NCBI GenBank assembly: GCA_021324575.1 | Contig: JAJPIW010000026.1 | Coordinates: 1 to 64,000 of the forward strand | Source of the DNA: Intrasporangiaceae bacterium | Lineage (GTDB): Bacteria; Actinomycetota; Actinomycetes; Actinomycetales; Dermatophilaceae | Length of the DNA: 64,000 nucleotides | Direction: 5' to 3' | Part shown: piece after piece, positions 223-64,000 of the stretch | Layout of the letters: the number at the start of each line of letters is the position of its first letter | Numbering within the stretch: position 1 is the first letter of the stretch | Translations under genes and position numbers: made by a program | Notes under the pieces: generated by a model | What the model saw: only the letters and a program-made list of their open reading frames with translations | Databases searched by the model: none | What the model was told of the DNA's origin: nothing

Positions 223-1473
223 TCACGGGGAGGGTGCCAGCTCCCGGCGAACCATGCGGTCCCTACCCAGCTCCGCGGTCACCACCCCCGCGATCGGACC
301 GGCCATGACGACGAGCAGGCACACCGGGAGGGACGCGCCCGCGGAGGCGAGCACGACCGCGACCACGAGGATGGCGACCTCGAGCGTCTTGGTGCCGACC
401 ACGGACCGGTTCAACCCGACGAGGACCTGGAAGAGCCCGGCGAGCGACACGGTGTAGACCCCGACGGGCACGGCCACGGCCAGCACCGCCCCGAGCGTCG
501 ACAGGTGCGACTCGCCGGACAGGACGGTGGCGGCGACGTGCAGCCCGGCGCCGATCGCCGCGATCGCCCCGAAGACGACGATGTGGAGGTAGCCGAACCG
601 GAAGCCCTTGTCGCGGTCCGCCTCCAGCGCCTCCCCGCTCGGTAGGAGGAAGTACAGCCACCACAGCCCGAAGGCCAGCCCGGTGCCGGCCAGCCCCACG
701 AGGGCCACGTCGAGGGTCCAGCCGTGCTCAAGGGCCGCGGACAAGGTCGCGATGGTCCCGATCAGGCACTCGCCGAGGGCGATGATCGCGAGCAGGCCGT
801 AGCGCTCGGCGATGTGGTGCGGGTGCCAGGGCGTGGGTGCACCCGCTCTGCGCTCCGCGGCATACGGGACCGCCCCCTCCAACCCGAGCATGACGAGCCA
901 GCCGATGACGGCCGACAGCCCGTGGGCGTGCAGGAGGTAGAAGACGACCCAGCCGGCCTGGGTGACCGCGATGCCCACGGCATACGTGAGGCAGGTGCGT
1001 CGCAGGGCGGGCTCACACTGCGAGGCGGCCCGCAGCCACTGGGCGACCATCGCGACCCGCATGATGATGTAGCCGATGATCATCGTCCCGTTGGCGAGCG
1101 AATGTCCCTCGTCGAGGGAGTGGAAGAGCGGCGTCAGGCCCACGGCCAGGACGAGCACCCCGAGCATCTGGACCATCGTGAGGACCCGGAACACCCAGTC
1201 GTCGGTGTCGAAGGCGCTGGCGAACCAGGTGAAGTTGATCCACGCCCAGACGATCGCGAAGACGGCGAAGCCGAAGCCGAGGACCGCGCCAGAGACGTGC
1301 CCCTCACCGAGCAGGTGCGCGGCCTGGTTGCCGGCAACCCCGAAGGCGATGGCGAAGGTGAGGTCGAAGAACAGCTCGAGCGGCGAGGAGACCCGGTGGT
1401 GCTCCTCAGGGTCGCGACCGGTCATCCTGCGGATGCCGTGGCTCGGCAGGCCGGCGTGGGTCGGGTGCGTCAT
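223..1473 (-). CDS. Low temperature requirement protein A (LtrA) family membrane protein
   Basis: EHHRVSSPLELFFDLTFAIAFG N-terminus and multiple TM segments. Confidence 0.85.
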   Translation of the reverse strand: MTHPTHAGLPSHGIRRMTGRDPEEHHRVSSPLELFFDLTFAIAFGVAGNQAAHLLGEGHVSGAVLGFGFAVFAIVWAWINFTWFASAFDTDDWVFRVLTMVQMLGVLVLAVGLTPLFHSLDEGHSLANGTMIIGYIIMRVAMVAQWLRAASQCEPALRRTCLTYAVGIAVTQAGWVVFYLLHAHGLSAVIGWLVMLGLEGAVPYAAERRAGAPTPWHPHHIAERYGLLAIIALGECLIGTIATLSAALEHGWTLDVALVGLAGTGLAFGLWWLYFLLPSGEALEADRDKGFRFGYLHIVVFGAIAAIGAGLHVAATVLSGESHLSTLGAVLAVAVPVGVYTVSLAGLFQVLVGLNRSVVGTKTLEVAILVVAVVLASAGASLPVCLLVVMAGPIAGVVTAELGRDRMVRRELAPSP

Positions 1474-1499
1474 GCGGGAGATCCTCCCGTATGCCGGCC

Positions 1500-2195
1500 T
1501 CAGCGGGTCGTGGCGAGCTTCGGGTCGACGACGTCGAGGTGGGAGTGGTCGTTGTAGCCGGCCACGAGGGCGCCGGTGCGTGCGCTCGTGGTGATCGTCG
1601 AGACCGAGGAGTTGACGATGGGGTACTGGAGCCGGCCCCACATGACCGGGTCACCGCCGAGGGTGCTCGTGAGCGCCCAGCAGACCGGGCCGGCCGACGT
1701 CGTGACGACGGCCGTGTCGTCCGGGCCGAGACCCTCCAGGACGTGGGCGAGCGCGGCCTCGACCCGCCCGGTGAAGGCGCTGAAGGTCTCCGGGTAGTCC
1801 TCGTCGTGCTCGCCCTCGGCCCAGCGGATCATCGCCTTCTCGAACATGACCATGAACGCGCGGTAGGGGCGGAAGGTGCGAACGAGGTCGGCCTTCATGA
1901 CCGTCATCGACCGGTAGGCGGGCTTGTGGGCGGTGATGATCGCCTGGTGGTCGTACTCGTTCCACCGGGGGTCGGTGTCGACCTCGACGTCCCACCCGGC
2001 GGCGTGGGTCATCCGCGCGACCGTCTGCTGCTGACGCTCGAGTCCCCCGGAGACGACCACCTTGGGCTTGATGCCACGCGCCGCGAGCGAGGTGCCGAGG
2101 ATGGCCGCCTGCCGCTCGCCGAGGGGAGACAGGTGGTCGTAGTCCTTCTTGCCCCACGACGCCTGGCCGTGCCGGACGAGCAGGATTCGGCTCAT
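1500..2195 (-). CDS. Histidine phosphatase (phosphoglycerate mutase-like) family protein
   Basis: ILLVRHGQASWGKKDYDHLSPLGERQA RHG motif. Confidence 0.88.
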   Translation of the reverse strand: MSRILLVRHGQASWGKKDYDHLSPLGERQAAILGTSLAARGIKPKVVVSGGLERQQQTVARMTHAAGWDVEVDTDPRWNEYDHQAIITAHKPAYRSMTVMKADLVRTFRPYRAFMVMFEKAMIRWAEGEHDEDYPETFSAFTGRVEAALAHVLEGLGPDDTAVVTTSAGPVCWALTSTLGGDPVMWGRLQYPIVNSSVSTITTSARTGALVAGYNDHSHLDVVDPKLATTR

Positions 2196-3298
2196 GGTGC
2201 TCCTTCGACGATCCGCTGGCAGGTGTTGCCCAGATAGCGAACCATGTCACCGAACCGGCCGTACGCCGGGTTGGTCGTCTGGCCGTGGAAGAAGCGGTAG
2301 TAGATCTGCTGGCCGATGACGGCGAGCCGGAACAGGCCGAACACCTCGTAGAAGGTCCAGTCCTCCGGTCCGATGGTCCGCCCGGTCCGTTCCCCGTATG
2401 CCGCGACGACCTCCTGGCGGGTCAGCATCCCTTTCGCGTTGGTCGGCTGGAGCCGTAGCGTGATCCGCTGGGGGTCGTCGTCTGCCTGGACCCAGTAGGC
2501 CAGGGCGCCGGCGAGGTCCATGAGCGGGTCACCCACGGTGGCGAGCTCCCAGTCGAGCAGAGCCCTGACCTGGGTCGGGTCGGCTGCGGACAGGACCATG
2601 TTGTCGAAGCGGAAGTCGTTGTGTATCAGGCACATTCCCGCGTCGGCGGGTTGGTGCGCGTCGAGCCAGGTCATGACGTCCTCGAGCGCGTCGACGTCGG
2701 GGGTGCGGGCGCGGCGGTAGCGCTCGTTCCAGCCGCCGACCTGGCGGGCCACGTAGCCCTCGCCCCGGCTGAGGTGCGCCAGGCCGGCCGCCTCGACGTC
2801 GACGGCGTGCAGGTCGGCGAGCCGGTCGATGGCGATGAGGCACAGCCGCTTGACGCCCGCCTCGTCAAGGCCGAGCTCGGGCGGGATGTCGGTGCGCAGG
2901 ATGGTGCCCTCGACCCGCTCCATGACGTAGAACGTGCTGCCGATGACCGACTCGTCCTCGCAGAGCGCGACCATCGTCGGCACGTACGGGTACACCGGCT
3001 TGAGGCCCGCTTGGAGGTTGTGCTCGCGCGCCATGTCGTGGGCGCCCTTGGCCTTCGTGCCGCCCGGGGGGCGGCGCAGGATCAGGTCGCGGCCGGCATA
3101 CGAGAGGAGATAGGTGAGGTTGCTCGCTCCCCCGACGAACTGCCGCACCTCGGGCGTTCCCCCGAGGCTGCCGTCGGTCCGGATCGGCTCGGAAGCGTTG
3201 TGCCGCAACCATTCCGCGACCACCGCGACGTCGAAGGCGTCCTCGCCGCGGACCGCCTTGGCATTGCTGGGAACGTCACTGCTCGGCAGCTCGGTCAC
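2192..3298 (-). CDS. Phosphotransferase family protein (APH / ACAD10-11 kinase-like)
   Basis: FVGGASNLTYLL, LIHNDFRFDNMV, ALLDWELATVGDPLMDLA; GTG start; ATGA overlap with upstream SDR. Confidence 0.87.
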   Translation of the reverse strand: MTELPSSDVPSNAKAVRGEDAFDVAVVAEWLRHNASEPIRTDGSLGGTPEVRQFVGGASNLTYLLSYAGRDLILRRPPGGTKAKGAHDMAREHNLQAGLKPVYPYVPTMVALCEDESVIGSTFYVMERVEGTILRTDIPPELGLDEAGVKRLCLIAIDRLADLHAVDVEAAGLAHLSRGEGYVARQVGGWNERYRRARTPDVDALEDVMTWLDAHQPADAGMCLIHNDFRFDNMVLSAADPTQVRALLDWELATVGDPLMDLAGALAYWVQADDDPQRITLRLQPTNAKGMLTRQEVVAAYGERTGRTIGPEDWTFYEVFGLFRLAVIGQQIYYRFFHGQTTNPAYGRFGDMVRYLGNTCQRIVEGAP

Positions 3299-4110
3299 GG
3301 GCGCCGGCCTCTGCCGTCGGGGTGCAGCTCGCGGTATGCCGCCCGCTCGCCGGCCTCCGTGAACTGCCGGTCGTAGAGCGGCCGGTCGTTGGTCTTGGTC
3401 CAGTAGGTCTGCCGGGCCAGCTCGTCGGGCAGGATGACCGGCTCCTGCCGGTCCATCCCGGCCATCACGGCAGTGGCGATGTCGTCGGCGGTCAGGGGCG
3501 AGTCGTTGATCAGCTTGGCCGCGGTCTTCTCGGCGGCGGCGTCGGCGCCGTGCATCGAGGCGGCCAGGTTGGTCCGGAAGAAGCTCGGGCAGACGACGCT
3601 CGTCGAGATCCCGAACGGGGCCAGCTCGAAGCGCAGCGTCTCCGAGAGCGCGACGACGGCGGCCTTGTTGGCGTTGTAGGCCGACATGACCGGGCCGTGG
3701 ACGAGGCCCGCGAGGCTGGCAGTGTTGACGATGTGGCCGGACCGCTGCGCCTTGAGCATCGGGGTGAAGGTCCGACAGCCCCGGACGGCGCCGAGCAGGT
3801 TGACCGCCAGGCCGCGCTCCCAGTCCTCGATCGTCGAGACGTCGATCCGGCCGCCGGTGGCGATGCCGGCGTTGTTGACGAGGACGTCGAGGCGGCCCCA
3901 TTGCTCGTCGACCCAGGCCTTGGCGGCGGCCCAGTCGGCGTCGCTCGTGACGTCAAGACGTTGGTACGTCACGCCGTTCGGCAGTAGGCCGGGCTCGACG
4001 GCCGCGTCGCGGTCGGTGGCCAGCACGGCGTCGCCGCGCGCGGCGAACGCCTTGGCGAGGGCCAGGCCGAGTCCGCTCGCGGCGCCGGTGAGGAGGACGT
4101 GACGGCTCAT
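3295..4110 (-). CDS. SDR family oxidoreductase
   Basis: VLLTGAASGLGLALA, NNAGIATGG, YNANKAAV. Confidence 0.9.
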   Translation of the reverse strand: MSRHVLLTGAASGLGLALAKAFAARGDAVLATDRDAAVEPGLLPNGVTYQRLDVTSDADWAAAKAWVDEQWGRLDVLVNNAGIATGGRIDVSTIEDWERGLAVNLLGAVRGCRTFTPMLKAQRSGHIVNTASLAGLVHGPVMSAYNANKAAVVALSETLRFELAPFGISTSVVCPSFFRTNLAASMHGADAAAEKTAAKLINDSPLTADDIATAVMAGMDRQEPVILPDELARQTYWTKTNDRPLYDRQFTEAGERAAYRELHPDGRGRRP

Positions 4111-5375
4111 CGGGCGCCCGCCTTCGCGGCATACTTCGCCAGCTCGAGCTTGGCCACGGTCGCGAGGTGGACCTCGTCCGGGCCGTCGGCGAGCCGGAGC
4201 GACCGGGCGCCGGCGTATGCCGCCGCGAGCGGGTAGTCCTCGCTCATCCCGGCGCCGCCGTGCAGCTGGATGGCCATGTCGATGACGTCCAGGGCCATGC
4301 CCGGCGTGGCCGCCTTGATCTCGGCGACCTCGGAGAGCGCGCCACGGGCGCCGAAGGTGTCCAGCTTCCAGGCCGCGTGCAGCACGTGCAGACGCGCCTG
4401 GTTGATGGCGATCCGGGCCTTGGCGATCCGCTCGCGGTTGCCGCCGAGGTCGACGATCGGGGTGCCGAACGCCTGCCGCGAGCTGGCCCTGGTGATGGCC
4501 AGCTCCAGGGCCATCTCGGCCAGGCCGACGAGCCGCATGCAGTGATGGACCCGGCCCGGGCCGAGCCGCCCCTGGGCGATCTCGAAGGCGCGGCCGGGGC
4601 CGGCGATGATGTTCTCGACCGGGACTCGGACGTTGTCGAGGAGGACCTGGCCGTGGCCGATCGGCTCGTCGTACTGGCCCATGGCAGAGAGCATCCGCTC
4701 GATCGTGACGCCCTGGCTGTCGCGCGGGACGACGACCATCGAGTGCCGGTGGTGGCGGTCGGCCTCGGGGTTGCTCACCGCCATGAAGATGAAGACCTTG
4801 CAGTCCGGGTGGCCGGCGCCCGAGGACCACCACTTGCGTCCGTTGAGGACGACGTCGTCGCCGTCGACCGTCGCGGTGGCCGCCATGTTGGTCGCGTCGG
4901 AGGAGGCGACGGCCGGCTCGGTCATGAGGAACGCGCTGCGGATCCGCCCGTCCAGCAACGGTTCCAGCCACTGCTTCTTCTGCTCGTCGCTGCCGTACTT
5001 GAGCAGAACCTCCATGTTGCCGGTGTCCGGGGCGTTGCAGTTGAACATGAGCGGGGCGAGGTAGGACCGGCCCATCGCCTCGGCCACCGGGGCGTAGTCG
5101 ACGTTGGACAGACCGGCGCCGCCGTCGGTCCCGAACTGGACGGCATACGGGCCCTCGTGGCCGGCCGGGAGGAAGAGGTTCCACAGGCCCTCGGCCCGCG
5201 CCTTGGCCTTCAGCTCCTCGACGAGCGGGTGCACGACCCACGGGTCCTCGCCTGCGGCGCGACGGCGGGCCACCTCCTCGCGCATGACCGGCTCGACCGG
5301 CTCGATCTGGTCGCGGACGAAGGTCCGGACCCGGTCGGCGAGGTCCTGTGAACGGGGCGACGGTGCGAAGTCCAT
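4107..5375 (-). CDS. Acyl-CoA dehydrogenase family protein
   Basis: FLMTEPAVASSDATNM, GGAGMSEDYPLA. Confidence 0.92.
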   Translation of the reverse strand: MDFAPSPRSQDLADRVRTFVRDQIEPVEPVMREEVARRRAAGEDPWVVHPLVEELKAKARAEGLWNLFLPAGHEGPYAVQFGTDGGAGLSNVDYAPVAEAMGRSYLAPLMFNCNAPDTGNMEVLLKYGSDEQKKQWLEPLLDGRIRSAFLMTEPAVASSDATNMAATATVDGDDVVLNGRKWWSSGAGHPDCKVFIFMAVSNPEADRHHRHSMVVVPRDSQGVTIERMLSAMGQYDEPIGHGQVLLDNVRVPVENIIAGPGRAFEIAQGRLGPGRVHHCMRLVGLAEMALELAITRASSRQAFGTPIVDLGGNRERIAKARIAINQARLHVLHAAWKLDTFGARGALSEVAEIKAATPGMALDVIDMAIQLHGGAGMSEDYPLAAAYAGARSLRLADGPDEVHLATVAKLELAKYAAKAGAR

Positions 5376-5415: not shown

Positions 5416-6102
5416 GTGAGGCCTCCGTCACCCGATCCACCGGCCGTCCGTCGTGTCCGGATGTCGCCGGAGGACCGACGCCGCCAGCTGTTGGGGATCG
5501 GCTTGGCTCGGCTCGTCGCGAACCCGCTCGACGATGTCCCGGTCGACGTCGTGGCGGCGGAGGCAGGGATCAGCCGCGGGCTGCTCTTCCACTACTTCCC
5601 GACCAAGGCCGACTATCAGCGCGAGGTCGTCGCGGCCGCCGGGCGCCGGGTGCTCCGCAACGTCGCTCCGCCGCGTGGGGCCGAGGGGCGGGAGGCGTTG
5701 CGGCACCTGGTGGTTCGGTTCCTCGAGCAGGTGCGTCGGCGGCAGACGTTCTTCCTCGCGCTCGTCCGCGGTGAGGGGCTGCTCGGGCCGAGCGGCGGGG
5801 CGCAGGTCCACGACACGCTACGGGCCGCGATGACCGAGCGGGTCATGACGTATGCCGCCCTGCCCGACGAGCGTCGACCGGTCGTCCACGCCTGGCTGGC
5901 CTACGTCGAGGACCTCGCGCTGACGTCAGAAGGTGAGCCGCCGGGCACCCGCCAGGCGGGGTCGGCAGGGTCGGCAGGGTCGGCAGGGTCGGCGGGGAGC
6001 ACACCAGCCGATCACGCGCCGACCGGACTACCGCTGGCTGAGGCACTCGCCGACCACGCCCTGGCTGCGCTGGACGCCCTCCTCGCCCTGCCCACCCTCT
6101 GA
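5416..6102 (+). CDS. TetR/AcrR family transcriptional regulator
   Basis: DRRRQLLGIGLARLVANPLDDVPVDVVAAEAGISRGLLFHYFPTKADYQREVV; start may be the ATG at 5461. Confidence 0.88.
   Translation: MRPPSPDPPAVRRVRMSPEDRRRQLLGIGLARLVANPLDDVPVDVVAAEAGISRGLLFHYFPTKADYQREVVAAAGRRVLRNVAPPRGAEGREALRHLVVRFLEQVRRRQTFFLALVRGEGLLGPSGGAQVHDTLRAAMTERVMTYAALPDERRPVVHAWLAYVEDLALTSEGEPPGTRQAGSAGSAGSAGSAGSTPADHAPTGLPLAEALADHALAALDALLALPTL
5959..5994 (+). repeat. In-frame 9-bp tandem repeat (GGGTCGGCA)x4 encoding Gly-Ser-Ala
   Basis: Four consecutive 9-mers, last with one change (GGGTCGGCG). Confidence 0.9.
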
Positions 6103-6276: not shown

Positions 6277-7506
6277 TCAGGCGGTGGCGAGACGCCGGTC
6301 GCGGTCGGCGACGTGGAGACGGACCGAGATGGCGATGACCACGAGGCCGAGCAGTGAGAGGCCGACGCCGACCCAGCTGGGCGCGGTGTAGCCCCAGCCA
6401 CGGGCGATCACGAGCCCGCCGAGCCAGGCGCCGAGGGCGTTGGCCAGGTTGAGCGAGGCGTGGTTGCTCGCCGCGCCAAGGGTCTGGGCGTCCCCCGCGA
6501 CCGCCATCAGCCGCAGCTGGAGCGCCACCACGAAGAACGAGATGACGACGGCGATGAGGAACAGGGTGAGTACAGCCGGCACGGCATACGAGGCCGCCCA
6601 GGTGAACGTCGCCAGGAGGACCGCGGTCCCGATCGAGCCGATCACCATCGTGCGCAGCACGGACCAGTCGACGAGCCGCCCACCGAGCCAGGTCCCGACG
6701 AGCCCGCCGAGACCGAAGGTGAGCAGGAAGATGGGGACCGCGTTCTCGGACAGATGGGTGACATGGGTGACGGTCGGGGCGATGTAGGAGTACATGGCGA
6801 ACATGCCGCCGAAGCCCACCGCGCCGATGAGCAGGGTGAGCCAGACCTGCGGTCGCTTCAGGGCACCGAGCTCGCTGCGGACGGTCGCGTCGGCGTTGTG
6901 CGGCGTGGTCGGGACGAACGCGAAGACCGCGACCGCCGTCGCCAGACCGATGACGCCGACCAGCCAGTACGCGGAGCGCCAGCCGAGGTGCTGCCCGAGC
7001 CAGGTCGCCGCGGGGACGCCGGCAATGTTGGCGATCGGGATGCCGAGCATGACCCGACCCACCGCCCGACCACCGCGGCCCGGCGGAGCCAGGTCGACGG
7101 CCACGAGGGAGGCGACCCCGAAGAACGCGCCGTGTGGCAGCCCGGCGATCACCCGCGCCGCGACGAGCAGGTCGAAGTTGGCGGCCACCGCGGACAGGAT
7201 GTTGCCGACCGCGAAGAGCACCATGAAGGCGATGAGCAGCCGGCGGCGCGGGAACCTGGCCCCGATGACGGCGAAGAGGGGGGCGCCGATGACGACGCCC
7301 GCGGCATACGCGCTGATCGCGTGACCGGCTGTCGGGATGTCGACCCCGACCCCGTCGGCGATCTGCGGGAGCAGCCCCATGGTCACGAACTCGGTTGTGC
7401 CGATGCCGAACCCGCCCAGGATGAGGGCGATGGTCGCGGCCAGGAGGCGGCGCGGGGAGGCGGTCACGGCAGTCAGGTCCAGGGGGCGTGTGTCAAGGAG
7501 GGTCAT
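6277..7506 (-). CDS. MFS transporter (AraJ/arabinose-efflux-like)
   Basis: LILGGFGIGTTEFVTMGLLPQIADGVGVDIPTAGHAISAYAAGVVIGAP. Confidence 0.9.
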   Translation of the reverse strand: MTLLDTRPLDLTAVTASPRRLLAATIALILGGFGIGTTEFVTMGLLPQIADGVGVDIPTAGHAISAYAAGVVIGAPLFAVIGARFPRRRLLIAFMVLFAVGNILSAVAANFDLLVAARVIAGLPHGAFFGVASLVAVDLAPPGRGGRAVGRVMLGIPIANIAGVPAATWLGQHLGWRSAYWLVGVIGLATAVAVFAFVPTTPHNADATVRSELGALKRPQVWLTLLIGAVGFGGMFAMYSYIAPTVTHVTHLSENAVPIFLLTFGLGGLVGTWLGGRLVDWSVLRTMVIGSIGTAVLLATFTWAASYAVPAVLTLFLIAVVISFFVVALQLRLMAVAGDAQTLGAASNHASLNLANALGAWLGGLVIARGWGYTAPSWVGVGLSLLGLVVIAISVRLHVADRDRRLATA

Positions 7507-7647
7507 CGGGAGTCCGGGGGGCTGGGGTGGAGCGCCGGCAACGATGACAGCGAGAGGGACGAAAGGTCCAAGGGTATGCCGTGCGCGGGCATTCCCCGGC
7601 GTCGCCGAGCCCGCTGACCGGGTTGCCGACCGGTCGCTGACCGGCCC

Positions 7648-8232
7648 TCAGGGCAGGAGATAGATGACGGCGTTGTTGCCACCGCGACAGGTGACCAGAG
7701 CCTTGCCCCCGCAGGTGATCGTGTAGGTCGTGTCGGTCACCGTGCTGTGTGCCCGCACCTGCCGGCTGCTGCCGTCGCCGACCCCGCCGGCACCGACGAA
7801 GGCATCCCTGACGGTGAGGGCGAACGAGCAGCTGGTCCGTGGCGTCCCGGCATACGCCCGCAGATCGCCGCCCTTGTCGCACAGGCGCGACCCGCCCGGC
7901 ACGGCCACGGTCGAGGTGGGGCGCGACGTGGTCGTCGACGGTGCCGGCTGACTCGGCGGCGCCGGTGTCGTCGTCGCCCGCGCCGAGGGTGCCGTCGTGG
8001 ACGACCCGACAGCCGTGGGACTGCCCGACCACTGGCCCTTGACCCAGCCCACACCCCAGATCGCGGCGCCGACGAACAGCACGAGAACGACGCCGACCAC
8101 GGCTCTCACCCGCCAGGGCGGGGGCGGCTCGGCGACAGTGCGCGCGCCGCAGGCGTCGCACCGCGCGGCATCCGCGCGGACGGGGGCACCGCACTTCGGA
8201 CAGGTCTGCAGGGGCTCCATGACAGAGCCCAT
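7648..8232 (-). CDS. Zinc-ribbon membrane-anchored hypothetical protein
   Basis: CPKCGAPVRADAARCDACGA then one TM segment and a Ser/Thr/Pro-rich linker. Confidence 0.75.
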   Translation of the reverse strand: MGSVMEPLQTCPKCGAPVRADAARCDACGARTVAEPPPPWRVRAVVGVVLVLFVGAAIWGVGWVKGQWSGSPTAVGSSTTAPSARATTTPAPPSQPAPSTTTSRPTSTVAVPGGSRLCDKGGDLRAYAGTPRTSCSFALTVRDAFVGAGGVGDGSSRQVRAHSTVTDTTYTITCGGKALVTCRGGNNAVIYLLP

Positions 8233-8754: not shown

Positions 8755-10113
8755 ATGCCCACACCGCCCGTTGCCGTCATCGGCGCCGGCCCGATCGGGC
8801 TGGCCGCCGCGGCCGAGCTCGTCCGCCGCGGTCAGGACGTCGTCGTGCTCGAGCGGGGGGCCCGAGCGGCCGCGGGGGTCCGCACCTGGGGTCACGTCCG
8901 GCTCTTCTCACCCTGGGCCGAGCTGACCTCCCCCGCCGCCGTTGCCCTCCTCCAGAAGGCGGGGTGGATCCCGCCCGACCCGATGCGCTGCCCGACCGGC
9001 GAGGAGTGGGCTGACCGCTACCTCGACCCGCTCGCGGCGGCTCTCGGCGACCGGGTGCGCAGCGGGTCAACGGTGGTCGGCGTGAGCAAGGCGGACCGTG
9101 ACCTGCTCGTCGACTCCGGTCGCGACGAGCAGCCCTTCGTCCTTCACGTGCGGGCCGTTGACGGATCCGTATCTCGGCTGGCAGCACGCGCTGTCATCGA
9201 CGCCAGCGGCACCCTGTCCACGCCCAATCCGCTTGGCGCAGAGGGCTACCCGGCAGCCGGCGAGCAGGGCGTCGCAGCCAAGCACACGGCATACGCCATC
9301 CCCCGGCCGGACGACCTCGAGAGGTATGCCGGTCGCGCGACCGCAGTCGTCGGGTCGGGTGCCTCTGCGCTCACCGCGCTGACCAGCCTGACGAGCGACC
9401 CGCTGCACACGCTCGACTCGCGGGTGGTCTGGGTGCTCCGGCGCGAATCGGCAGGCAGGGCGTTCGGAGGTGGCGAGGCCGACCAGCTGCCCGCCCGGGG
9501 CGCCCTGGGCACCCGGGTCCGAGCGGCCGTCGCCGACGGGAGGATCGAGGTCGTGTCGGGCTTCCGGACGAGCGCCCTGGAGGCGCGGACCGACGGACGG
9601 GTCGCCCTCCGCAGCGCGGACGGCCGGGCCGTCGACGGGCTCGACGAGGTGGTCTGCGTGACCGGGTTCCGGCCCGACCTGTCCTTCCTCTCCGAGGTCC
9701 GCCTGGATCTTGACTCCCGCCTCGAGGCGCCCAGCCGGCTGGCGCCGGAGATCGACCCCAACGTCCACTCGTGCGGCTCGGTGCGGCCACACGGGCACGA
9801 CGTCCTCGAGCAGCCGGACCGGGGCCTCTATCTGGCCGGGATGAAGGCGTACGGGCGAGCTCCCTCCTTCCTCGCCCTCACCGGCTACGAGCAGGTGCGG
9901 TCGATCGCGGCGGCGCTCGCGGGCGACCTCGCGGCGGCCGATGCCGTCCAGCTGATGCTCCCGGAGACCGGAGTCTGCGGCGGAGCGGGCACCTTCGACG
10001 AGGCCGACGGCGCCGGAGGCTGCTGCGGAGCCCCGGCCGGCGCCGGGTCGCAGCCCATCGGCCTGGGCGTGCCGGCGGACCGACTGCTCGACCTCTCGCC
10101 GGCGAACGGCTGA
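8755..10113 (+). CDS. FAD/NAD(P)-dependent oxidoreductase of the ars cluster (ArsO-like) with Cys-rich C-terminus
   Basis: VAVIGAGPIGLAAAAELVRRG; VVGSGASAL; tail GVCGGAG...GGCCGAP. Confidence 0.8.
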   Translation: MPTPPVAVIGAGPIGLAAAAELVRRGQDVVVLERGARAAAGVRTWGHVRLFSPWAELTSPAAVALLQKAGWIPPDPMRCPTGEEWADRYLDPLAAALGDRVRSGSTVVGVSKADRDLLVDSGRDEQPFVLHVRAVDGSVSRLAARAVIDASGTLSTPNPLGAEGYPAAGEQGVAAKHTAYAIPRPDDLERYAGRATAVVGSGASALTALTSLTSDPLHTLDSRVVWVLRRESAGRAFGGGEADQLPARGALGTRVRAAVADGRIEVVSGFRTSALEARTDGRVALRSADGRAVDGLDEVVCVTGFRPDLSFLSEVRLDLDSRLEAPSRLAPEIDPNVHSCGSVRPHGHDVLEQPDRGLYLAGMKAYGRAPSFLALTGYEQVRSIAAALAGDLAAADAVQLMLPETGVCGGAGTFDEADGAGGCCGAPAGAGSQPIGLGVPADRLLDLSPANG

Positions 10114-11279: not shown

Positions 11280-13382
11280 TCAGGACGGGACCTTGGCCTC
11301 GAGCTCGGCCAGCCACGCGGTCGCCGCCGCGTCGGACGGCATCCGCCAGTCACCGCGGGGTGACAGGGATCCGCCGGCCACGACCTTGGGGCCGTTGGGC
11401 ATCGCGGTGCGCTTGAACTGGTTGGCGAAGAAGCGCCTGATGAACACCTCGAGCCAGTGCCGGATCGTCGCCAGGTCGTATGCCGGTCGCTCTCCGGCGG
11501 GGTAGCCGGGCGGCCACTCCCCGACCGCCGCGTCACGCCAGGCCGCCTCGGCGAGGAAGGCGATCTTGCTGGGCCGGGCGCCCCGACGGAGCACGTGGAA
11601 GAGGGTGAAGTCCTGGAGGGCGTACGGCCCGACCGAGGCCTCGGTGGACTGCGGCTTCTCGCCCGGCTTGGTGGGGACGAGCTCAGGGGTGATCTCCTGG
11701 CCGAGGATGGCGCCCAGGATCTCGTCGACGTCCGGCGTGAACTGACTCGAGGAGATGACCCACCGGATGAGGTGCTGGATGAGGGTCTTGGGGACGCCCG
11801 CGTTGACGCCGTAGTGGCTCATCTGGTCGCCGACGCCGTAGGTACACCAACCCAGCGCGAGCTCGGACAGGTCGCCGGTGCCGAGGACGATGCCGCCGCG
11901 CTGGTTCGCCGCGCGGAAGAGGAGGTCGGTCCGCAGACCTGCCTGGACGTTTTCGAACGTGACGTCGTAAACCTCGCCGCCGTCGCCCGCGGGGTGGTCC
12001 AGTGCCTTGAGCAGCTCGGTCGCCATGGGCCGGATGTCGACCTCCTCGAATGTCACGCCCAGGGCCTCGGACAGCCTCGTCGCGTTGCCCTTGGTCCCGT
12101 CGGTCGTCGCGAAGCCCGGCATGGTGAAGGCCAGGATGTGCGAGCGGTCCAGGCCGAGCCGGTCGCACGCCTTCGCGGCGACGATGAGAGCGTGTGTCGA
12201 GTCCAGGCCGCCGCTCACGCCGATGACGATCCGCGGCATACGGGACGGGTCGCCGCCGCCGATGGCCCGCAGCCGCTGCTCGAGCCCGGAGACCTGGATG
12301 TTGTAGGCCTCGTAGCAGTCCTGCGCGAGCCGATCCGGCTCGTCGGGCACGAACGGGAACCGGTCGACGGCGCGTCGCAGCCCGAGGTCGCCGCGCGGCG
12401 GGTCGAGGGTGAGCTCGACGGTCCGGAACCCCTCGCCCTGGTCGGTGTCGAGCCACTCCGCGCGCCGGTTGTCCTCGAACGACCCCTGCCGAATTCGCTC
12501 CTGTCGCAACCGGTCCACGTCGACGTCGACGATGGTGGCGGTCGCCTCGTGGGGGAAGCGTTCGCCTTCGCCGAGCAGGTCGCCCATCTCGTAGACCATG
12601 GTCAGGCCGTCCCAGGACAGGTCGGTGCTGCTCTCCCCGGCCATCGCCGCGGCATACGCGTAGGCCGTGTTGCAGCGCGCCGACGCCGAGCGGGCGAGGA
12701 GATGCCGGTCGTCGGCGCGACCGATGGTGACCGGGGACGCCGAGAGGTTGAGGGTCAGGGTCGCGCCGGCGAGCGCGGCCTTGGCGCTCGGGGGGACCGG
12801 TACCCACATGTCCTCGCAGATCTCGACGTGGACGGTCAGACCCTCGACGTCTGCGACGCGGAAGAGCAGGTCGGGACCGAACGGCACCGCACCGTCGTCG
12901 TCGGCACCCGGCCAGTGCGGCCGCCGGAGGAACTCGTCGCGTGCATCGACGCCGGAGGTGAAGTGCCGCTTCTCGTAGAACTCGCGGTAGTTGGGCAGGA
13001 ACGACTTGGGCGCCACTCCAAGCACCTCGCCGCGGTGGATGACGACGGCGCAGTTATGCAGCCGGTTGCCGTGCCGCAGCGGGGCCCCGACGACGACGAT
13101 CGGCAGCAGCCCCTTGGTCGCCTCGGCGACGGTCACGACGGCCGCGTCGACGGCGTCGAGGAGGACGTCCTGGAGCAACAGGTCGTCGATGGCGTAGCCT
13201 GAGAGCGACAGCTCGGGGAAGAGCGCGACAGCCACGCCGTCCCTGTCCAATGCCCGCACCTGCTCCACGATCCGGGCCGCGTTGGTCGCCGGGTCGGCGA
13301 GCGCGACCGGCACCGTGCAGGCCGCGACCCGGGCGAACCCGTGCCGATAGATGTTGCGGAAGTCCGGGGTGCGAGCGGCCAC
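11280..13382 (-). CDS. nadE: Glutamine-dependent NAD(+) synthetase
   Basis: Nitrilase-like N-terminus; IGVSGGLDSTHALIVA; LGTGDLSELALGWCTYG. Confidence 0.95.
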   Translation of the reverse strand: MAARTPDFRNIYRHGFARVAACTVPVALADPATNAARIVEQVRALDRDGVAVALFPELSLSGYAIDDLLLQDVLLDAVDAAVVTVAEATKGLLPIVVVGAPLRHGNRLHNCAVVIHRGEVLGVAPKSFLPNYREFYEKRHFTSGVDARDEFLRRPHWPGADDDGAVPFGPDLLFRVADVEGLTVHVEICEDMWVPVPPSAKAALAGATLTLNLSASPVTIGRADDRHLLARSASARCNTAYAYAAAMAGESSTDLSWDGLTMVYEMGDLLGEGERFPHEATATIVDVDVDRLRQERIRQGSFEDNRRAEWLDTDQGEGFRTVELTLDPPRGDLGLRRAVDRFPFVPDEPDRLAQDCYEAYNIQVSGLEQRLRAIGGGDPSRMPRIVIGVSGGLDSTHALIVAAKACDRLGLDRSHILAFTMPGFATTDGTKGNATRLSEALGVTFEEVDIRPMATELLKALDHPAGDGGEVYDVTFENVQAGLRTDLLFRAANQRGGIVLGTGDLSELALGWCTYGVGDQMSHYGVNAGVPKTLIQHLIRWVISSSQFTPDVDEILGAILGQEITPELVPTKPGEKPQSTEASVGPYALQDFTLFHVLRRGARPSKIAFLAEAAWRDAAVGEWPPGYPAGERPAYDLATIRHWLEVFIRRFFANQFKRTAMPNGPKVVAGGSLSPRGDWRMPSDAAATAWLAELEAKVPS

Positions 13383-20400: not shown

Positions 20401-20412
20401 GGCCAATACCGT

Positions 20413-21280: not shown

Positions 21281-21281
21281 G

Positions 21282-45607: not shown

Positions 45608-46285
45608 CTAGGCGCGGTCCTGCCAGGTGCAGATGCACGCCTCGTTGCCCTCGGGGTCGGCCAGCACCCAGAACGCCCGCGCCCGGGCATCGCTGACCAG
45701 CCGGCCGCCGGCGGCGAGCGCCGCCTCGAGCCGGGCGTCGGCCACGTCGTGCGGGACGACCACGTCCAGGTGGATCCGGTTCCGCTGCGGCCGCGGCGAG
45801 TCCAGCTGCTGGAACCACACCGCCGGCCCGATCCCGGTCGGGTCCTCGACCTGCCGGACGATGTCGCCCTCCACACCGGGGCGGGCATCGACGTAGGCGA
45901 GCACCGCCTTCCAGAACGGCCGCACCACGTCGATGTCCATCGCGTCGATGGCGATCTCGGTCGACGCCGACCCGGTCGGTAGCTGGACCGTCGCCCCGTC
46001 CTCGGCAGCCGCCGCGCTCACCGCCTCGGCCAGCCGGACGTCCCGCCGCGAGACCCCGTGGACGTCGTGGCTCGTCGACACGACATGGACCACACCGGGA
46101 TAGGCGACGTGGATCGTCGGGTGGTGGTTCTGCGCGTCCGCGAGAGCCGCGACCCGGCCCGCGAAGACGCCGGCCGCGGCATACGACCCGAACCGGAAGT
46201 TCGCCTCGATCGTCCCGACGAGGAACCGCCAGTCAGCCAGCCCGAGGTCGTGGAACGCCGGCCCGGACAGTCGCGTGTCAGCCAT
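45608..46285 (-). CDS. Pterin-4a-carbinolamine dehydratase-like domain fused to VOC domain
   Basis: ALADAQNHHPTIHVAYPGVVHVVSTSHDVHGVSRRDVRLAEAVSAAA then VOC; ADPEGNEACIC. Confidence 0.8.
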   Translation of the reverse strand: MADTRLSGPAFHDLGLADWRFLVGTIEANFRFGSYAAAGVFAGRVAALADAQNHHPTIHVAYPGVVHVVSTSHDVHGVSRRDVRLAEAVSAAAAEDGATVQLPTGSASTEIAIDAMDIDVVRPFWKAVLAYVDARPGVEGDIVRQVEDPTGIGPAVWFQQLDSPRPQRNRIHLDVVVPHDVADARLEAALAAGGRLVSDARARAFWVLADPEGNEACICTWQDRA

Positions 46286-51203: not shown

Positions 51204-52094
51204 ATGGCCAACCACTACGAGGTGCGACACCGGACGACCTACACCTACGACGACGACGTCGAGGCCTGCTACGAACGCGGCCCGCTCCGCCCCCGCGACA
51301 CCCCCTACCAACAGGTGCAGTCGCACGAGGTCACCGTCAGCCCCGAGCCGGACCTCGTCACCGACCACACCGACCACTTCGGCAACCACACGCAGTACCT
51401 CGAGATCCGCACACCCCACACCGAGCTCGTCGTCGACAAGCGGACCGTGGTCACCGTCGACTGGCCGACCCCGGACCCGGCCGTGCTCGACGCCCACACC
51501 GTCGCCGACGTCGCCCTGCGCACGACCGGCCAGCCGGACGCCCCACTTGTGCACACGGCATACCGGCTGCCCTCCCGACTGGTCGACATCGGCCCGGAGG
51601 TCATCGCGTATGCCGCACCGATCCTCTCCCCCGACCGTCCGTTCGGGGAGGCGCTCGCCGCGCTCTACGAGGCGGTCTACTCCGACTTCCGGTACGAGAA
51701 GGGGGCCACGTCGGTGCGTACGACGTTGCCCGAGCTGCTCGAGCTGCGGGCCGGCGTGTGCCAGGACTTCGCCCACCTCGCCCTCGGCGCCCTGCGCTGG
51801 GCCGGGCTCACCGCCCGCTACGTGAGCGGCTACATCGAGACGACCCCGCCGCCCGGGCGGCCCAAGCTGGCCGGCTCCGACGCGACCCACGCCTGGGTGT
51901 CCGTGCTGGCGCCGGACGGCACCTGGGTCGACCTCGACCCGACGAACAACCACTTCGCCGACTCCCGCTACATCGTCAGCGCGTGGGGCCGCGACTTCGC
52001 CGACGTGTCACCGCTCAAGGGCGTCGTCTTCACCGAGAGCCCGACGTCGCGGCTCAAGGTCGGCGTCGACGTCATCCCGCTCGACGCGTCGTAG
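51204..52094 (+). CDS. Transglutaminase-like family protein
   Basis: YEVRHRTTYTYDDDVEACYERGPLRPRDTPYQ; ELRAGVCQDFAHLALGALRWAGLTARYVSGYIET; ATHAWVSV. Confidence 0.9.
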   Translation: MANHYEVRHRTTYTYDDDVEACYERGPLRPRDTPYQQVQSHEVTVSPEPDLVTDHTDHFGNHTQYLEIRTPHTELVVDKRTVVTVDWPTPDPAVLDAHTVADVALRTTGQPDAPLVHTAYRLPSRLVDIGPEVIAYAAPILSPDRPFGEALAALYEAVYSDFRYEKGATSVRTTLPELLELRAGVCQDFAHLALGALRWAGLTARYVSGYIETTPPPGRPKLAGSDATHAWVSVLAPDGTWVDLDPTNNHFADSRYIVSAWGRDFADVSPLKGVVFTESPTSRLKVGVDVIPLDAS

Positions 52095-57475: not shown

Positions 57476-60090
57476 GGCCCTGACACTACGCCGTATGCCG
57501 CGGTGCAGCTCGAGCTCGCCGGCGACACCCCCAACGCGTCGGCGGCTGACCGGGCGCGGCTGCGACCGAGGTTCCAGGCGAGGGCGTCGTCGCTGTCCGC
57601 GGGCGTGCCGGCGCTGACCAGGCACGCCTTGAGCTCGCTCGGCAGGGAGCTGCCCGCGATGGTCGGGACGGCATCAGCGCCCAGCTGGGCGAGGTATATG
57701 GCGTCCAGCTTGCCGGTGAGGTGGTAGCGGGCGATGTTCTGCGCGGCGACGAAGCCGTCGGGGTTGAGCAGGCCGAAGCCGAGGGTGAACGCGGCACCAC
57801 TCGCCACCGCCGCGCGCGGCAGCCAGGAGGCCCGCTCGACCAGGACGGCCGCGAGGACGCACGCCACGAGCAGACCGAGCCAGAGCTCGAAGCCGTCGAC
57901 GAACAGCCGCAGCGTGGTCCAGCCGTAGGCGGACTGGTAGAGCGACATCCGGTGCAGTGCCGAGGCGACGACACAGAGGGTGAGGACGCAGAGCACCGCG
58001 GTCATCGCCCTGAGCGCGAACCGGTCCCGAGACATTTCGACCGATGCCTTGCGACGGACGAGCGCGACAACGGCGAGGGTGAGCACCGTGACGACGGTGA
58101 GCTGCCCGAACCCCTGGTGCACGTAGTCGGCATACGTCAGACCGGTCGTCCGCTGCACGTAGTCGTGACCGCCGAAGAGGGCGACGCCCTGCGCGGCGAG
58201 GAACGCGGCATACGTCGCGATGACGAGCCCGAGCGGTACCTGCCACTCCCAGGCCTGCGCGGTCCGGCGGCCAGCCGGGAGACCGAGGTCGTCGACGGTC
58301 GGCGGGTTGAGGGCGAGGTAGCAGCCGGCCAGGGTGATGCCGCCGGCGAGGACGAGGACGAAGGTCCGGAGGGTCAGGCTGCTCCACGCGAGATCGGGCA
58401 CGAGGCGCTGCGCCCACGCCCCGAGCAGGGCATCCGCCGAGGCGAAGAGCCCGCCGAAGAGGACGAGCGCGACCAGTGAGATCGCGGCCGTCCGGATGAC
58501 CGGCCAGAGCAGGCGCTGGCTCGTCATCGCACCGAGAGTGCGGCCGAGGAGTGGCAGTCCGCGCATGCCGGAGAAGACCCACGCGACCCCACTGGCGACC
58601 ATTCCCGCAAGGGTGCGTGCGCCGGTCAGGGCGACCGCTGCGACCGCGGCCGCGGTGGCGACCGACAGGATGGCCACAGCGGGTCGGTCGCGCAGCACGA
58701 CGACCAGGCCGAGAGCGACGCAGGTGACCACACTCCCCAGCGTCCACAGGCTGCGGCGGGTCGGTGATGCGTGCCAGATGGTCGCGCCAGCCAGGAGGAG
58801 GACGGCCAGCACGCCGACACCGAGGTTGCGGTAGGGCAGGACGACCGCGCCGACGACCCCGACCGCCAGGGCCGACCAGACGTAGCGCGGCTGCGGGGCC
58901 GGGTCGCGCTCGGGCCAGCGCTCCGCGAACAGCGGCTCGATGACTGGCGGTGCCGGGGGCAGGCTGCCGTATGCCGTGCGCGCGGCAGGGCTCGTCGGCG
59001 GGGGTTCCGCTGTGGTTGCCGATGTCCTTGTGGCAGAGCCTGGTTCAGCTGGCTGGGAAGGCGTCATGATGGGCTCCTTGCGGGTCGGTGGCTGAACGGG
59101 GAGGACGGCGCGGATGGTCGCGCCGGGATGGTCGGCATCGGTCGGGACGGCCGAGATCCGGCCGCCGTGCAGGTCGCAGACCCAGGCGGCGATGGCGAGG
59201 CCGAGGCCGGTCCCGCCGGAGGTGTCGTCGCCGGTCCCGAACCGGCTGAACAGACGGTCGGTGGCGCCGGCGGGCAGACCCGGGCCGTCGTCGGACACCT
59301 GGAGGAACCAGCGCTCCCCCTCGTCGCGGCCGGCCGTCACGCGGACCTCACCGCCGGTCGGGCTGTGCCGGATGGCGTTGTCGAGCAGGTTGGCGACCAC
59401 CTGGGAGAGGCGGTCCGGGTCACCGACGACCCGGAGGTCAGACGGCTCGACGTCGACCGTGAAATTGACGTCCCGGCCCTGCAGGCGGCCCTCGGCCACG
59501 GACTCCTCCAACATTGCCCGGACGCCCAGAACCGTTGTCCGCAAAGCGGTCTGGCCACCGTCGATGCGGGAGAGGTCGAGCAGGTCACGGACGAGAGCGC
59601 CGAGGCGCTCGGACTGGACGAGCGCCGATCGTAGAGTCGCCTCGTCCGGCTGGACGACCCCGTCGGCGAGGTTCTCCAGGAGCGCCTGCTGGGCCGCGAG
59701 CGGTGTCCGGAGCTCATGGGAGACGGTGGCGACGAGCTCGCGGCGCTGGCGGTCCACTGCGGCGAGCTGCGCGGCCATCGTCGTGAACGAGCGCGCCAGC
59801 AGGCCGACCTCGTCGTTCGAGGTCGTCGTGACGGGCACCGTGTGGTCGCCCGCGGCCAGCCGGCTCGCGGCATACGTCATCTCCCGCAACGGCGCGGTCA
59901 TCCCCCGGGCCAGCCACTGGGTGACCCCGAGGGCGGCCGCGATGGTCACCGGAAGACTGAGCCACAACGGCACCCGAGCCTGCTGGCCGATGCCGACGAC
60001 GAGGGCCGCCGCGATCACGGAGAGGCCGACGAGCAGGCCGAGCTTGACCTTGATCGAGGTGACCTGGTCGAGCGGTCGGTCAGGGTTCAC
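57472..60090 (-). CDS. Sensor histidine kinase fused in frame to DUF4173-like membrane protein; internal ATG with SD at 59067
   Basis: HAMP, ELVATVSHELRTPLAAQQALLENLADG, GTGLGLAIAAWVCDLHGG; then polytopic DUF4173-like region without intervening stop. Confidence 0.8.
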   Translation of the reverse strand: MNPDRPLDQVTSIKVKLGLLVGLSVIAAALVVGIGQQARVPLWLSLPVTIAAALGVTQWLARGMTAPLREMTYAASRLAAGDHTVPVTTTSNDEVGLLARSFTTMAAQLAAVDRQRRELVATVSHELRTPLAAQQALLENLADGVVQPDEATLRSALVQSERLGALVRDLLDLSRIDGGQTALRTTVLGVRAMLEESVAEGRLQGRDVNFTVDVEPSDLRVVGDPDRLSQVVANLLDNAIRHSPTGGEVRVTAGRDEGERWFLQVSDDGPGLPAGATDRLFSRFGTGDDTSGGTGLGLAIAAWVCDLHGGRISAVPTDADHPGATIRAVLPVQPPTRKEPIMTPSQPAEPGSATRTSATTAEPPPTSPAARTAYGSLPPAPPVIEPLFAERWPERDPAPQPRYVWSALAVGVVGAVVLPYRNLGVGVLAVLLLAGATIWHASPTRRSLWTLGSVVTCVALGLVVVLRDRPAVAILSVATAAAVAAVALTGARTLAGMVASGVAWVFSGMRGLPLLGRTLGAMTSQRLLWPVIRTAAISLVALVLFGGLFASADALLGAWAQRLVPDLAWSSLTLRTFVLVLAGGITLAGCYLALNPPTVDDLGLPAGRRTAQAWEWQVPLGLVIATYAAFLAAQGVALFGGHDYVQRTTGLTYADYVHQGFGQLTVVTVLTLAVVALVRRKASVEMSRDRFALRAMTAVLCVLTLCVVASALHRMSLYQSAYGWTTLRLFVDGFELWLGLLVACVLAAVLVERASWLPRAAVASGAAFTLGFGLLNPDGFVAAQNIARYHLTGKLDAIYLAQLGADAVPTIAGSSLPSELKACLVSAGTPADSDDALAWNLGRSRARSAADALGVSPASSSCTAAYGVVSGP

Positions 60091-60791
60091 GCGACGGCCT
60101 CCAGGGCGTAGCCGACGCCGTGGACGGTCCGGATCCGGTCGGCGCCGACCTTGGCGCGCAGGGCTTTGACGTGGCTGTCGAGGGTCCGCGTGCCGAGGCT
60201 GTCGGTCCAGCCCCAGACCTCCTGGAGGATCGCCTCGCGGCGCAGGACGACGCCCGGCTGGGTCGCGAGGAGGGCCAGCAGGTCGAACTCGGTGGGCGTG
60301 AGGTGGACCTCGACCCCGCCGGTCTCGACGCGGCGGCCGGCCCGGTCCAGGGTGAGGCCCCCGATGTGGAGGGCCGGCTCGGTCGACCCGGCCGCGGCCA
60401 GCTGCTGAGCTCGCTCGACCCGGCGCAGGAGCGCGCGGATCCGGGCGACGACCTCGCGCATCCGGAACGGCTTGGTGAGGTAGTCGTCGGCCCCGACGCC
60501 CAGCCCGACGAGGATGTCGGTCTCCTCGTCGCGGGCGGTGACCATGAGGACCGGGACCGGTCGGTCGGCCTGGATCCTGCGGCATACCTCCAGCCCGTCG
60601 AAGCCGGGGAGCATCACGTCAAGCACGACCAGGTCGGGGCGGTAGGTCTCGTATGCCGCGACCGCACCCGGCCCGTCCCAGGCCTGGTGCACCGAGAAGC
60701 CCTCTGCGACAAGGCGATCGGCCAACGCCTGGTTGATCGTCGGCTCGTCCTCGACGACGAGGAGGACGGGGCGCTGCGTTCCTTCGGGCAT
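60087..60791 (-). CDS. OmpR-family response regulator
   Basis: VLLVVEDEPTINQALADRL; LDVMLPGFDGLEVCRRI; winged-helix C-terminus. Confidence 0.94.
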   Translation of the reverse strand: MPEGTQRPVLLVVEDEPTINQALADRLVAEGFSVHQAWDGPGAVAAYETYRPDLVVLDVMLPGFDGLEVCRRIQADRPVPVLMVTARDEETDILVGLGVGADDYLTKPFRMREVVARIRALLRRVERAQQLAAAGSTEPALHIGGLTLDRAGRRVETGGVEVHLTPTEFDLLALLATQPGVVLRREAILQEVWGWTDSLGTRTLDSHVKALRAKVGADRIRTVHGVGYALEAVA

Positions 60792-62493: not shown

Positions 62494-63462
62494 CGTGACG
62501 GCGGCGAGCGCCAGGCGGGTGGCCCAGCCGGCGAGCGCCTCGCGCACGGCCGGGCTCGCCTCCTCGACGACGACATCGACTCCCAGCGCACCGATGCCGA
62601 AGACGGCCCAGGCCGGCGAGCGAACCTCCATGGCCACCCGGCACGACGCGTCGTCGATCGGGGTGACGGTGCCCCAGCGGCCGATACCCGTCTCGATCAC
62701 CGAGGCGGGCGCGGCGGCTCGGACGACGACCCGGCCGGACTCCTCGTTGCGTGAAAGCCCTTGCCGCACGTAGGTGGCCGCGTCGCCGCCCGGGATCTCG
62801 CGGGGCCGGAACATCGACCTGGTGCCCATCGGCTCACGGAGCCGGTCGAGACGGAACGAGCGCCAGTCCTGCCGGTCGAGGTCGTATGCGACGAGGTACC
62901 ACCGTCGCCCCACCGTGACCAGGCGGTGTGGCTCGACGTGCCGGCGGACGTCCTCGCCGGCCACCTGCCCACCTCTCGCGCGATAGACGAACCGGACCCG
63001 CTCGCTGTCGCGCGCCGCTTGCGCGAGGGCGGCGAGGACCTCGGCCTCCACCTCGGGCGCCTCACCGAACGGGGAGTCGACGGTGACCGAGCGCAGCGCC
63101 TCGGCCCGTCGACGAAGCCGCGGCGGCAGGACCTGGACGACCTTGGCGAGCGCCGACAGCGAGGCGTCGGCGAGCGCCCCACCGGCAGCACCGGCCGAGC
63201 CCCCGAGTGCCACGACCAGGGCGATGGCCTCGTCCTCGTCGACGACGAGCGGGGGCATCGACGCGCCCGCGCCGAGCTGGTAGCCGCCCTCGACTCCCCG
63301 CGAGGACCGGACCGGGTAGCCGAGCTCCCGCAGCCGCTCGACGTCGCGGCGCAGCGTGCGGTCGCTCACCTCGAGCCGGTCGGCGAGCTCGTTGCCCGGC
63401 CAGAACCGATGGGTCTGGAGGAGCGACAGCAGACGCAGGGTCCGAGAGCTGGTGTTGGCCAT
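62488..63462 (-). CDS. HTH/WYL-domain (YafY-like) transcriptional regulator
   Basis: RTLRLLSLLQTHRFWPGNELADRLEVSDRTLRRDVERLRELGYPV. Confidence 0.92.
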   Translation of the reverse strand: MANTSSRTLRLLSLLQTHRFWPGNELADRLEVSDRTLRRDVERLRELGYPVRSSRGVEGGYQLGAGASMPPLVVDEDEAIALVVALGGSAGAAGGALADASLSALAKVVQVLPPRLRRRAEALRSVTVDSPFGEAPEVEAEVLAALAQAARDSERVRFVYRARGGQVAGEDVRRHVEPHRLVTVGRRWYLVAYDLDRQDWRSFRLDRLREPMGTRSMFRPREIPGGDAATYVRQGLSRNEESGRVVVRAAAPASVIETGIGRWGTVTPIDDASCRVAMEVRSPAWAVFGIGALGVDVVVEEASPAVREALAGWATRLALAAVTI

Positions 63463-63564
63463 GCAGCCCATCTTGCTCGGAATAGCGGTCAGAAAGTGTC
63501 CGGAACGGTTCCTAGCGTGGGTCAGGTCAGGGAAATCCCCACGAGACCTCGCCAAGGAGACCTC

Positions 63565-64000
63565 ATGAGCACCACCGCTCCCGCTCGGCCCGATCCGGTC
63601 GAGACCCACGTACCTCATCCAGACCTCAGCAACGCCACCTCCGCCGACCCCACAACCGTCGCCCTCGGCCCGCTCCCCGTCGGCCGGGCTCGCACCGCGG
63701 CACTGATCTCGCTCTTCCTCGCCTCGTCGATGGAGCTGCTCGATGTCAGCATCGTCAACGTCTCACTCCCGACGATCGAGAAGGGACTGCACGCCTCGGC
63801 GACCCAGCTGCAGTGGATGATCGCGGCATACCCGCTCGCCTTTGCCATCGCCCTGATCACCGGGTCCCGACTCGGTGACCGGTTCGGGCGCAAGCGGCTG
63901 TTCGTCATCGGACTCATCGCTTTCACCCTCATGTCGGCGGCGTGCGGCTTCGCGCCGACGGCCGGCGCGCTCGTCGCCTTCCGCGCGCTGCAGGGGCTGG
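63565..64000 (+). CDS. MFS transporter, DHA2-like (truncated by window end)
   Basis: LFLASSMELLDVSIVNVSLPTIEKGLHASATQLQWMIAAYPLAFAIALITGSRLGDRFGRKRLFVIG. Confidence 0.9.
   Translation, partial: MSTTAPARPDPVETHVPHPDLSNATSADPTTVALGPLPVGRARTAALISLFLASSMELLDVSIVNVSLPTIEKGLHASATQLQWMIAAYPLAFAIALITGSRLGDRFGRKRLFVIGLIAFTLMSAACGFAPTAGALVAFRALQGL

Follow-up and report, generated by a model that had tools for sequence, protein, structure and literature searches.

The cyanobacterial HIP1 (GCGATCGC) is a palindromic octamer that occurs about once per kb throughout the genome. The DNA uptake sequence (DUS) of the Neisseriaceae (Frye et al. 2013, PMC3630211) and the uptake signal sequence (USS) of the Pasteurellaceae have in common what Redfield et al. 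(2006, PMC1626085) regarded as a puzzling attribute, an 'unusually strong consensus', and inverted pairs of the DUS located between genes double as terminators (PMC3630211). In Micrococcus luteus, natural transformation uses comEA, comEC and Flp/tad pili (PMC8467076, PMC6370729). Here we describe an octamer, GTATGCCG/CGGCATAC on the two strands, iterated along a 64-kb stretch of DNA (the window) that covers positions 1 to 64,000 of contig JAJPIW010000026.1 of Intrasporangiaceae bacterium. This genome (G000) belongs to the Dermatophilaceae/Intrasporangiaceae, as its named ComEC relatives indicate, and has Phycicoccus, Knoellia, Terrabacter and Ornithinimicrobium among its relatives. The abundance of the word is a real, strong and lineage-wide phenomenon, and we consider it likely that GTATGCCG serves this lineage as an uptake sequence for its own DNA, acting like DUS or USS.

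The window contains 93 exact copies (47 on the plus and 46 on the minus strand, 1.45/kb), compared with a mean of 1.00 and a maximum of 6 in dinucleotide shuffles of the same DNA. An earlier note on this stretch had claimed roughly 90 copies with both orientations equally frequent, and the exact count agrees with it on both points; among the coordinates that it listed, those on the plus strand were exact and those on the minus strand were 1 or 2 bases off. The balance extends to the whole genome (4.24 Mb in 103 contigs), where 2,376 + 2,348 = 4,724 copies were found (1.11/kb), against 186 + 202 = 388 for the reversed word used as control. The comparison of orientation with replichore that the same note suggested was possible in a congener assembled as a single contig (G001), where 420 kb spread around the contig gave 141 plus and 143 minus copies and therefore no replichore bias.

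A word of this kind could simply arise from preferences for certain codons or dipeptides (Tyr-Ala or Ala-Tyr) or from mutation bias, and the fact that most genic copies fall in two frames goes in that direction. Genes were called by our own codon-usage model on 386 kb of G000 (~10% of the genome), on which the codon nulls are based together with 440 kb of G001. Genic copies amounted to 295 of 407 (~72%) in G000, while synonymous codon shuffling within genes (200 shuffles) produced only 22.5 +/- 4.8 with a maximum of 36, a ~13-fold enrichment that places GTATGCCG first among all 8-mers. The frames were sense Tyr-Ala (xxG-TAT-GCC-Gxx, 144 copies), antisense Ala-Tyr (xCG-GCA-TAC, 96) and antisense Gly-Ile (32), with only a mild excess of sense over antisense copies (164 vs 131); the independence from gene strand proposed at first is refined in that the genic copies are locked in frame. 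The dipeptide objection, which the earlier note had raised against its own idea, fails because xxG-TAT-GCC-Gxx was found 144 times and xxG-TAC-GCC-Gxx only 17 times, in spite of TAT being only ~9% of the Tyr codons outside the word. Furthermore, the density was higher in noncoding DNA (1.66/kb) than in genes (0.93/kb, p 9e-7), and the reversed word is far rarer. Neither codon nor dipeptide usage accounts for the abundance of GTATGCCG, and we give this explanation practically no weight.

The copies are also exact. In the 386 kb of G000 there were 407 perfect copies, compared with 266 for all 24 single-mismatch words together, close to the 256 expected by chance with the word masked, and two control words gave the reverse ratio (24 perfect vs 378 single-mismatch and 22 vs 1,104). 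The locus of P. elongatus showed the same trend (22 vs 10), and in the congener G001 the figures were 291 and 496, with the neighbour GTATGCGG being itself enriched there. Beyond the word, the flanks conserve a preceding C (71 of the 93 copies in the window, the extended form often being CGTATGCCG) and a weak G two bases downstream, and nothing else. This limited conservation is difficult to reconcile with copies of a mobile repeat, such as a REP/BIME-like element (repetitive extragenic palindrome/bacterial interspersed mosaic element), as is the location of most copies within unrelated genes and in few preferred frames; in spite of the high copy number and of the tandem triplet at 38052-38094, we regard such an origin as extremely improbable. 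This triplet is in any case unusual in being direct, since close copies are mostly inverted.

Neighbouring copies separated by less than 100 bases were inverted in 40 of 49 cases (p 9e-6). The same bias was seen at 16:2 in other word-bearing loci, at 8:1 in genomes with the variant GGATGCCG and at 11:1 in a second family. Some of the inverted pairs lie between convergent genes and resemble terminators (for example at 42766-42821), what might suggest that the word is a transcription terminator or an RNA hairpin element. Since ~72% of the copies are genic and most are single, and the same use as terminator has been reported as a secondary role of the DUS (PMC3630211), this possibility appears very improbable indeed. 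A scan of the window against Rfam gave no match. Another candidate role is an orientation signal, Chi-like for RecBCD/AddAB or KOPS-like (FtsK orienting polar sequence) for FtsK. Such signals are likewise words of 7-8 bases, iterated and lineage-specific, but the strand and replichore balance described above, in the genome and in the congener contig, the ~13-fold enrichment over the codon null, and the noncoding preference with inverted pairs do not suit an oriented signal, and we consider it very unlikely, in agreement with the earlier note, which had found Chi and KOPS less fitting than DUS and USS for lack of orientation bias. Representative positions in the window are collected in Table 1.

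Table 1 Copies of the iterated word and related features in the 64-kb window
Feature	Position	Strand	Remarks
93 copies of GTATGCCG/CGGCATAC	858..63831	both strands	exact match
word copy	858..865	-	exact match
word copy	978..985	-	exact match
word copy	1489..1496	+	exact match
word copy	2396..2403	+	exact match
word copy	3094..3101	-	exact match
word copy	3334..3341	+	exact match
word copy	4127..4134	-	exact match
word copy	4215..4222	+	exact match
word copy	5141..5148	-	exact match
word copy	5850..5857	+	exact match
word copy	6582..6589	-	exact match
word copy	7302..7309	-	exact match
word copy	7574..7581	+	exact match
word copy	7848..7855	-	exact match
inverted word pair	9287..9331	9287-9294 -, 9324-9331 +	29 bases between
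word copy	11478..11485	+	exact match
word copy	12234..12241	-	exact match
word copy	12650..12657	-	exact match
inverted word pair	14251..14344	14251 +, 14337 -	
inverted word pair	16769..16843	16769 +, 16836 -	
longest word-free gap, 5.2 kb	19326..24516		G+C 0.65-0.69 over ~19.7-23.2 kb; contains PemK/MazF-like ORF (open reading frame)
word copy	30859..30866	+	exact match
inverted word pair	31284..31381	31284 -, 31374 +	
inverted word pair	34989..35033	34989 +, 35026 -	29 bases between
three direct copies, CCCCGTATGCCGGTCA-type units	38052..38094	+	17-18 bases apart; intergenic, minus-strand genes 36789-38048 and 38096-40060
inverted word pair	40843..40930	40843 +, 40923 -	
inverted word pair around G+C-rich hairpin	42766..42821	42766 -, 42814 +	between convergent genes; terminator-like as in inverted DUS
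word copy	46177..46184	-	exact match
word copy	46441..46448	-	exact match
inverted word pair	51556..51615	51556 -, 51608 +	44 bases between
word copy	58128..58135	-	exact match
word copy	58206..58213	-	exact match
inverted word pair	60580..60658	60580 -, 60651 +	
word copy	63824..63831	-	exact match

The recurrence in related genera, another point that the earlier note had proposed to check, was evident across the family. About half of 60 family genomes contained from several hundred to more than 3,000 copies (4,724 in G000) and the others were at background. At the comEC locus the word was iterated in Phycicoccus elongatus Lp2, Knoellia remsis, Intrasporangium oryzae, Humibacillus xanthopallidus, Terrabacter sp. 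Root85, three Ornithinimicrobium and several Tetrasphaera-like MAGs (metagenome-assembled genomes), and it was missing from the same locus in Janibacter indicus, Intrasporangium flavum, Dermacoccus abyssi, an uncultured Phycicoccus and other actinobacterial orders. Variants of the word (dialects) were sought by ranking the 8-mers against the codon null in samples of 20-80 kb, a size at which a weak dialect of a 'word-free' genome could escape notice, and the first-ranked words were then counted genome-wide (forward/reverse, with the reversed-word control in square brackets). GGATGCCG was found in G017 (1966/1850 [224/168]), G027 (1977/1972 [140/149]), G045 (1104/1091 [95/112], alongside GTATGCCG) and, in a different family, G095 (2229/2262 [78/81]). 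GTATGACG was found in G028 (987/967 [36/51]) and G005 (754/803 [75/76]) and more weakly in further genomes, invariably alongside GTATGCCG. GTATGCGG characterised G021 (591/613 [54/53]) and accompanied GTATGCCG in G001 (397/444 [138/153]). CGATGCGG appeared in G058 (1026/981 [84/88]) and in G068, from a third family (656/746 [56/57]), and G079, from the second family, had the dialect CGGATGCC(T/G)CG. Every dialect was strand-balanced and had a density similar to that of GTATGCCG. Samples of 40 kb from each of ten other families of the order had no obvious word of this type, apart from weak CGATGCGG-like words in G068.

Some further words were enriched or regularly spaced. GTACG-type words (GTACGTCG, GTACGCCG and ACGTACGC) were enriched at L058, L061, L065, L079 and L082 and in G041 and G049, that is, in Kribbella, Nocardioides, Marmoricola and two genomes of the family of the window, and they are perhaps a different iterated word. 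At L073, of an uncultured bacterium (Loclat_bin-11151), GGCAACGG was present 19 times in 17 kb (1.4 expected), perhaps as a local repeat or as one more word of the iterated type. In G077 (contig C1:28082-31265), GTATGCGG was found every 61 bp over 3.2 kb (~53 times), probably a CRISPR array with a repeat containing those letters.

On a ComEC tree (one gene, midpoint root) deep branches of the family carry the word and scattered ones are without it. The labels require at least 10 state changes, compared with 19.9 after shuffling, and the two GGATGCCG rows come out as sisters. This distribution fits an old origin followed by repeated loss and switching. In aligned word-bearing loci with 70-75% identity, the word was exactly retained at 37% of the positions and permuted controls at 20%; one-mismatch forms at orthologous positions were less frequent for the word (13% vs 26%). 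The excess of exact conservation was present in every identity class, the locus pairs being phylogenetically non-independent.

Recently acquired DNA showed the opposite picture. The word was under-represented in the islands L137, L138, L125 and L162. In G000, L137 (0.15/kb) and L125 (0.16/kb) carry a phage integrase and L138 (0.4/kb) a TrwC relaxase, and the sole 20-kb sample of the congener G001 that was free of copies has genes for an RHS protein and for a transposase of the Mutator type. The Tetrasphaera jenkinsii phage TJE1 had 2 copies over 49 kb, a number near that expected by chance, the word content of T. jenkinsii itself lying outside the comparison. In its hairpin form the word had at least 120 matches among viral contigs, hardly more than the reversed control (106), and so gave no sign of viral use. 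Within the window, the length of the gap at 19326-24516 was marginally unusual (P about 0.045), with the lower G+C in its left part. An ORF at 20716-21165 (minus strand), within this low-G+C word-free gap, resembles by eye a PemK/MazF-type toxin. At 23444-26950 (minus strand) there is a SNF2-family helicase of 1168 aa (Pfam SNF2-rel_dom and Helicase_C) with distant ZorD/DrmD-type similarity, its scores being far under the cut-offs of those families.

The earlier note had also advised looking for a com- or T4P-like set of uptake genes. comEA and comEC are adjacent in G000, a TadF-like pilin is encoded on contig C43, and relatives have a Tad cluster beside prfB in the order tadA-tadB-tadC-flp-TadE-TadF-TadE2. 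Among the genomes compared comEC was found in 54 of 58, comEA in 91 of 98 and T2SSF in 97 of 98. Such genes are present, but they are not particular to word bearers. As correlates of the word ComEA and ComEC had to be discarded for being near-universal, T2SSF/Tad for being universal, and PilM, the marker of the type IVa (T4a) pilus, for being missing from nearly all bearers. An intact TadF-like pilin was present in 33 of 35 bearers and in 18 of the 25 non-bearers (p 0.027 by Fisher's test, with no correction for kinship), with a sorting of the genomes that was our own and counted G058, which has the CGATGCGG dialect, as a non-bearer. One non-bearer copy is broken by a stop. In the word-free G038 the gene of the TadF-like minor pilin (contig C3:541518-541811) is a partial match with an internal TAG. 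As a bearer-specific receptor, this pilin with its C-x4-C loop was rejected, given that the word-free Dermacoccus has the same loop and that two bearers, G018 and G027, lack a strong match. Because of these two genomes the TadF-like pilin may not be the receptor, and we take it as a lead only.

All the sequence tests that we ran supported the DUS/USS-like reading put forward in the earlier note, and it fits nearly every hallmark, point by point, of the systems described in PMC1626085 and PMC3630211. From this agreement we infer competence, the reading of the word at the uptake stage, the existence of a receptor protein and the cause of the accumulation. A DNA-binding part of the competence machinery, presumably a minor pilin of the Tad/Flp pilus or an accessory of ComEA, would bind double-stranded DNA bearing the word and pass it to ComEA and ComEC, after which it would be inserted in the chromosome by homologous recombination. 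Fragments with the word would enter more often, and this biased uptake together with recombination would spread and repair it (molecular drive) wherever protein coding permits. The exactness of the copies, their maintenance at orthologous positions, their presence on both strands, the noncoding preference, the absence from new DNA and the dialects would follow from such a drive. Recent imports and phages would be without the word, a shift in receptor specificity would lead to its genome-wide rewriting into a dialect, and after loss of competence it would decay.

The nearest rival is a HIP1-like function, that is, a word kept by another chromosome-wide process, such as a site for a methyltransferase or repair protein or nucleoid organisation, with a recognition that varies between genera. 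A genome-wide, strand-neutral and exact word with dialects would also fit it, as would the failure of competence genes to separate bearers from non-bearers. On the other hand, HIP1 is palindromic and GTATGCCG is not, the recently acquired islands are without the word, the close copies are intergenic inverted pairs as for the DUS, and a fully specified non-palindromic 8-mer would be unusual for a methyltransferase. We therefore see the HIP1-like function as unlikely. Of the two resemblances suggested originally, the one to DUS/USS is supported and the one to HIP1 is disfavoured by the lack of palindromy.

Several points weigh against an uptake sequence. To our knowledge no member of the family is naturally transformable. 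Besides the two bearers with no strong TadF match, comEA, comEC and the Tad genes are also present in word-free relatives, and gene content is thus non-discriminating. Uptake words have been described only in two Gram-negative families (PMC5031613), and none is mentioned for M. luteus in PMC8467076 or PMC6370729. Our search of the open-access literature turned up no description of an uptake word in Actinobacteria and, among the papers listed, none relevant to the letters of GTATGCCG; a description in a subscription journal or preprint is possible.

We lean towards a broader proposal, a third and independently evolved uptake-sequence system, the first in Gram-positives. It would consist of order-wide dialects with an ATG core (GTATGCCG, GGATGCCG, GTATGACG/GTATGNCG, GTATGCGG, CGATGCGG and CGGATGCC(T/G)CG) that in Actinobacteria are read by a competence machine of the Tad/Flp-pilus type and have repeatedly been switched or lost across some fifty genera. 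If true, this third system, and first one in monoderm Actinobacteria, would indicate that self-recognition at uptake evolves repeatedly and requires neither an outer membrane nor a T4a pilus. In a family with soil bacteria and wastewater phosphorus-accumulating ones among its members, natural transformation would be both ancient and still at work, the dialects would be a natural series for finding the receptor, and the word would be of practical use as a tag in the transformation of bacteria that are difficult to manipulate.

A close parallel is the DUS of the Neisseriaceae (Frye et al. 2013, PMC3630211), equally non-palindromic and on both strands at ~1-2 copies/kb, with dialects that differ by 1-2 letters between genera, some genomes with two of them, inverted intergenic pairs and word-free genomes within the family. 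Unlike the DUS, our word belongs to another phylum and another type of cell envelope, has 8-9 bases instead of 10-12 and has no known ComP, and PilM is missing from almost all bearers. The neisserial DUS starts with ATGCCG, a resemblance that is probably due to chance because its essential core is CTG. The USS of the Pasteurellaceae (Redfield et al. 2006, PMC1626085) is similar in its density (~1/kb), lack of orientation bias, noncoding preference, excess of perfect over single-mismatch copies and clade-specific variants, and also in that all the members have competence genes, as here, but no extended AT-rich repeats were seen in the flanks of the word described here. HIP1 shares with our word the condition of a genome-wide octamer at ~1/kb, ours being non-palindromic and forming inverted pairs. 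Finally, the naturally transformable M. luteus (PMC8467076, PMC6370729) is, like our bacterium, a high-GC Gram-positive, and the two have in common the pair comEA-comEC and the genes of the Flp/Tad pilus. It differs in that those papers mention no uptake word for it, and most of the sister families sampled here are without such an iterated word.

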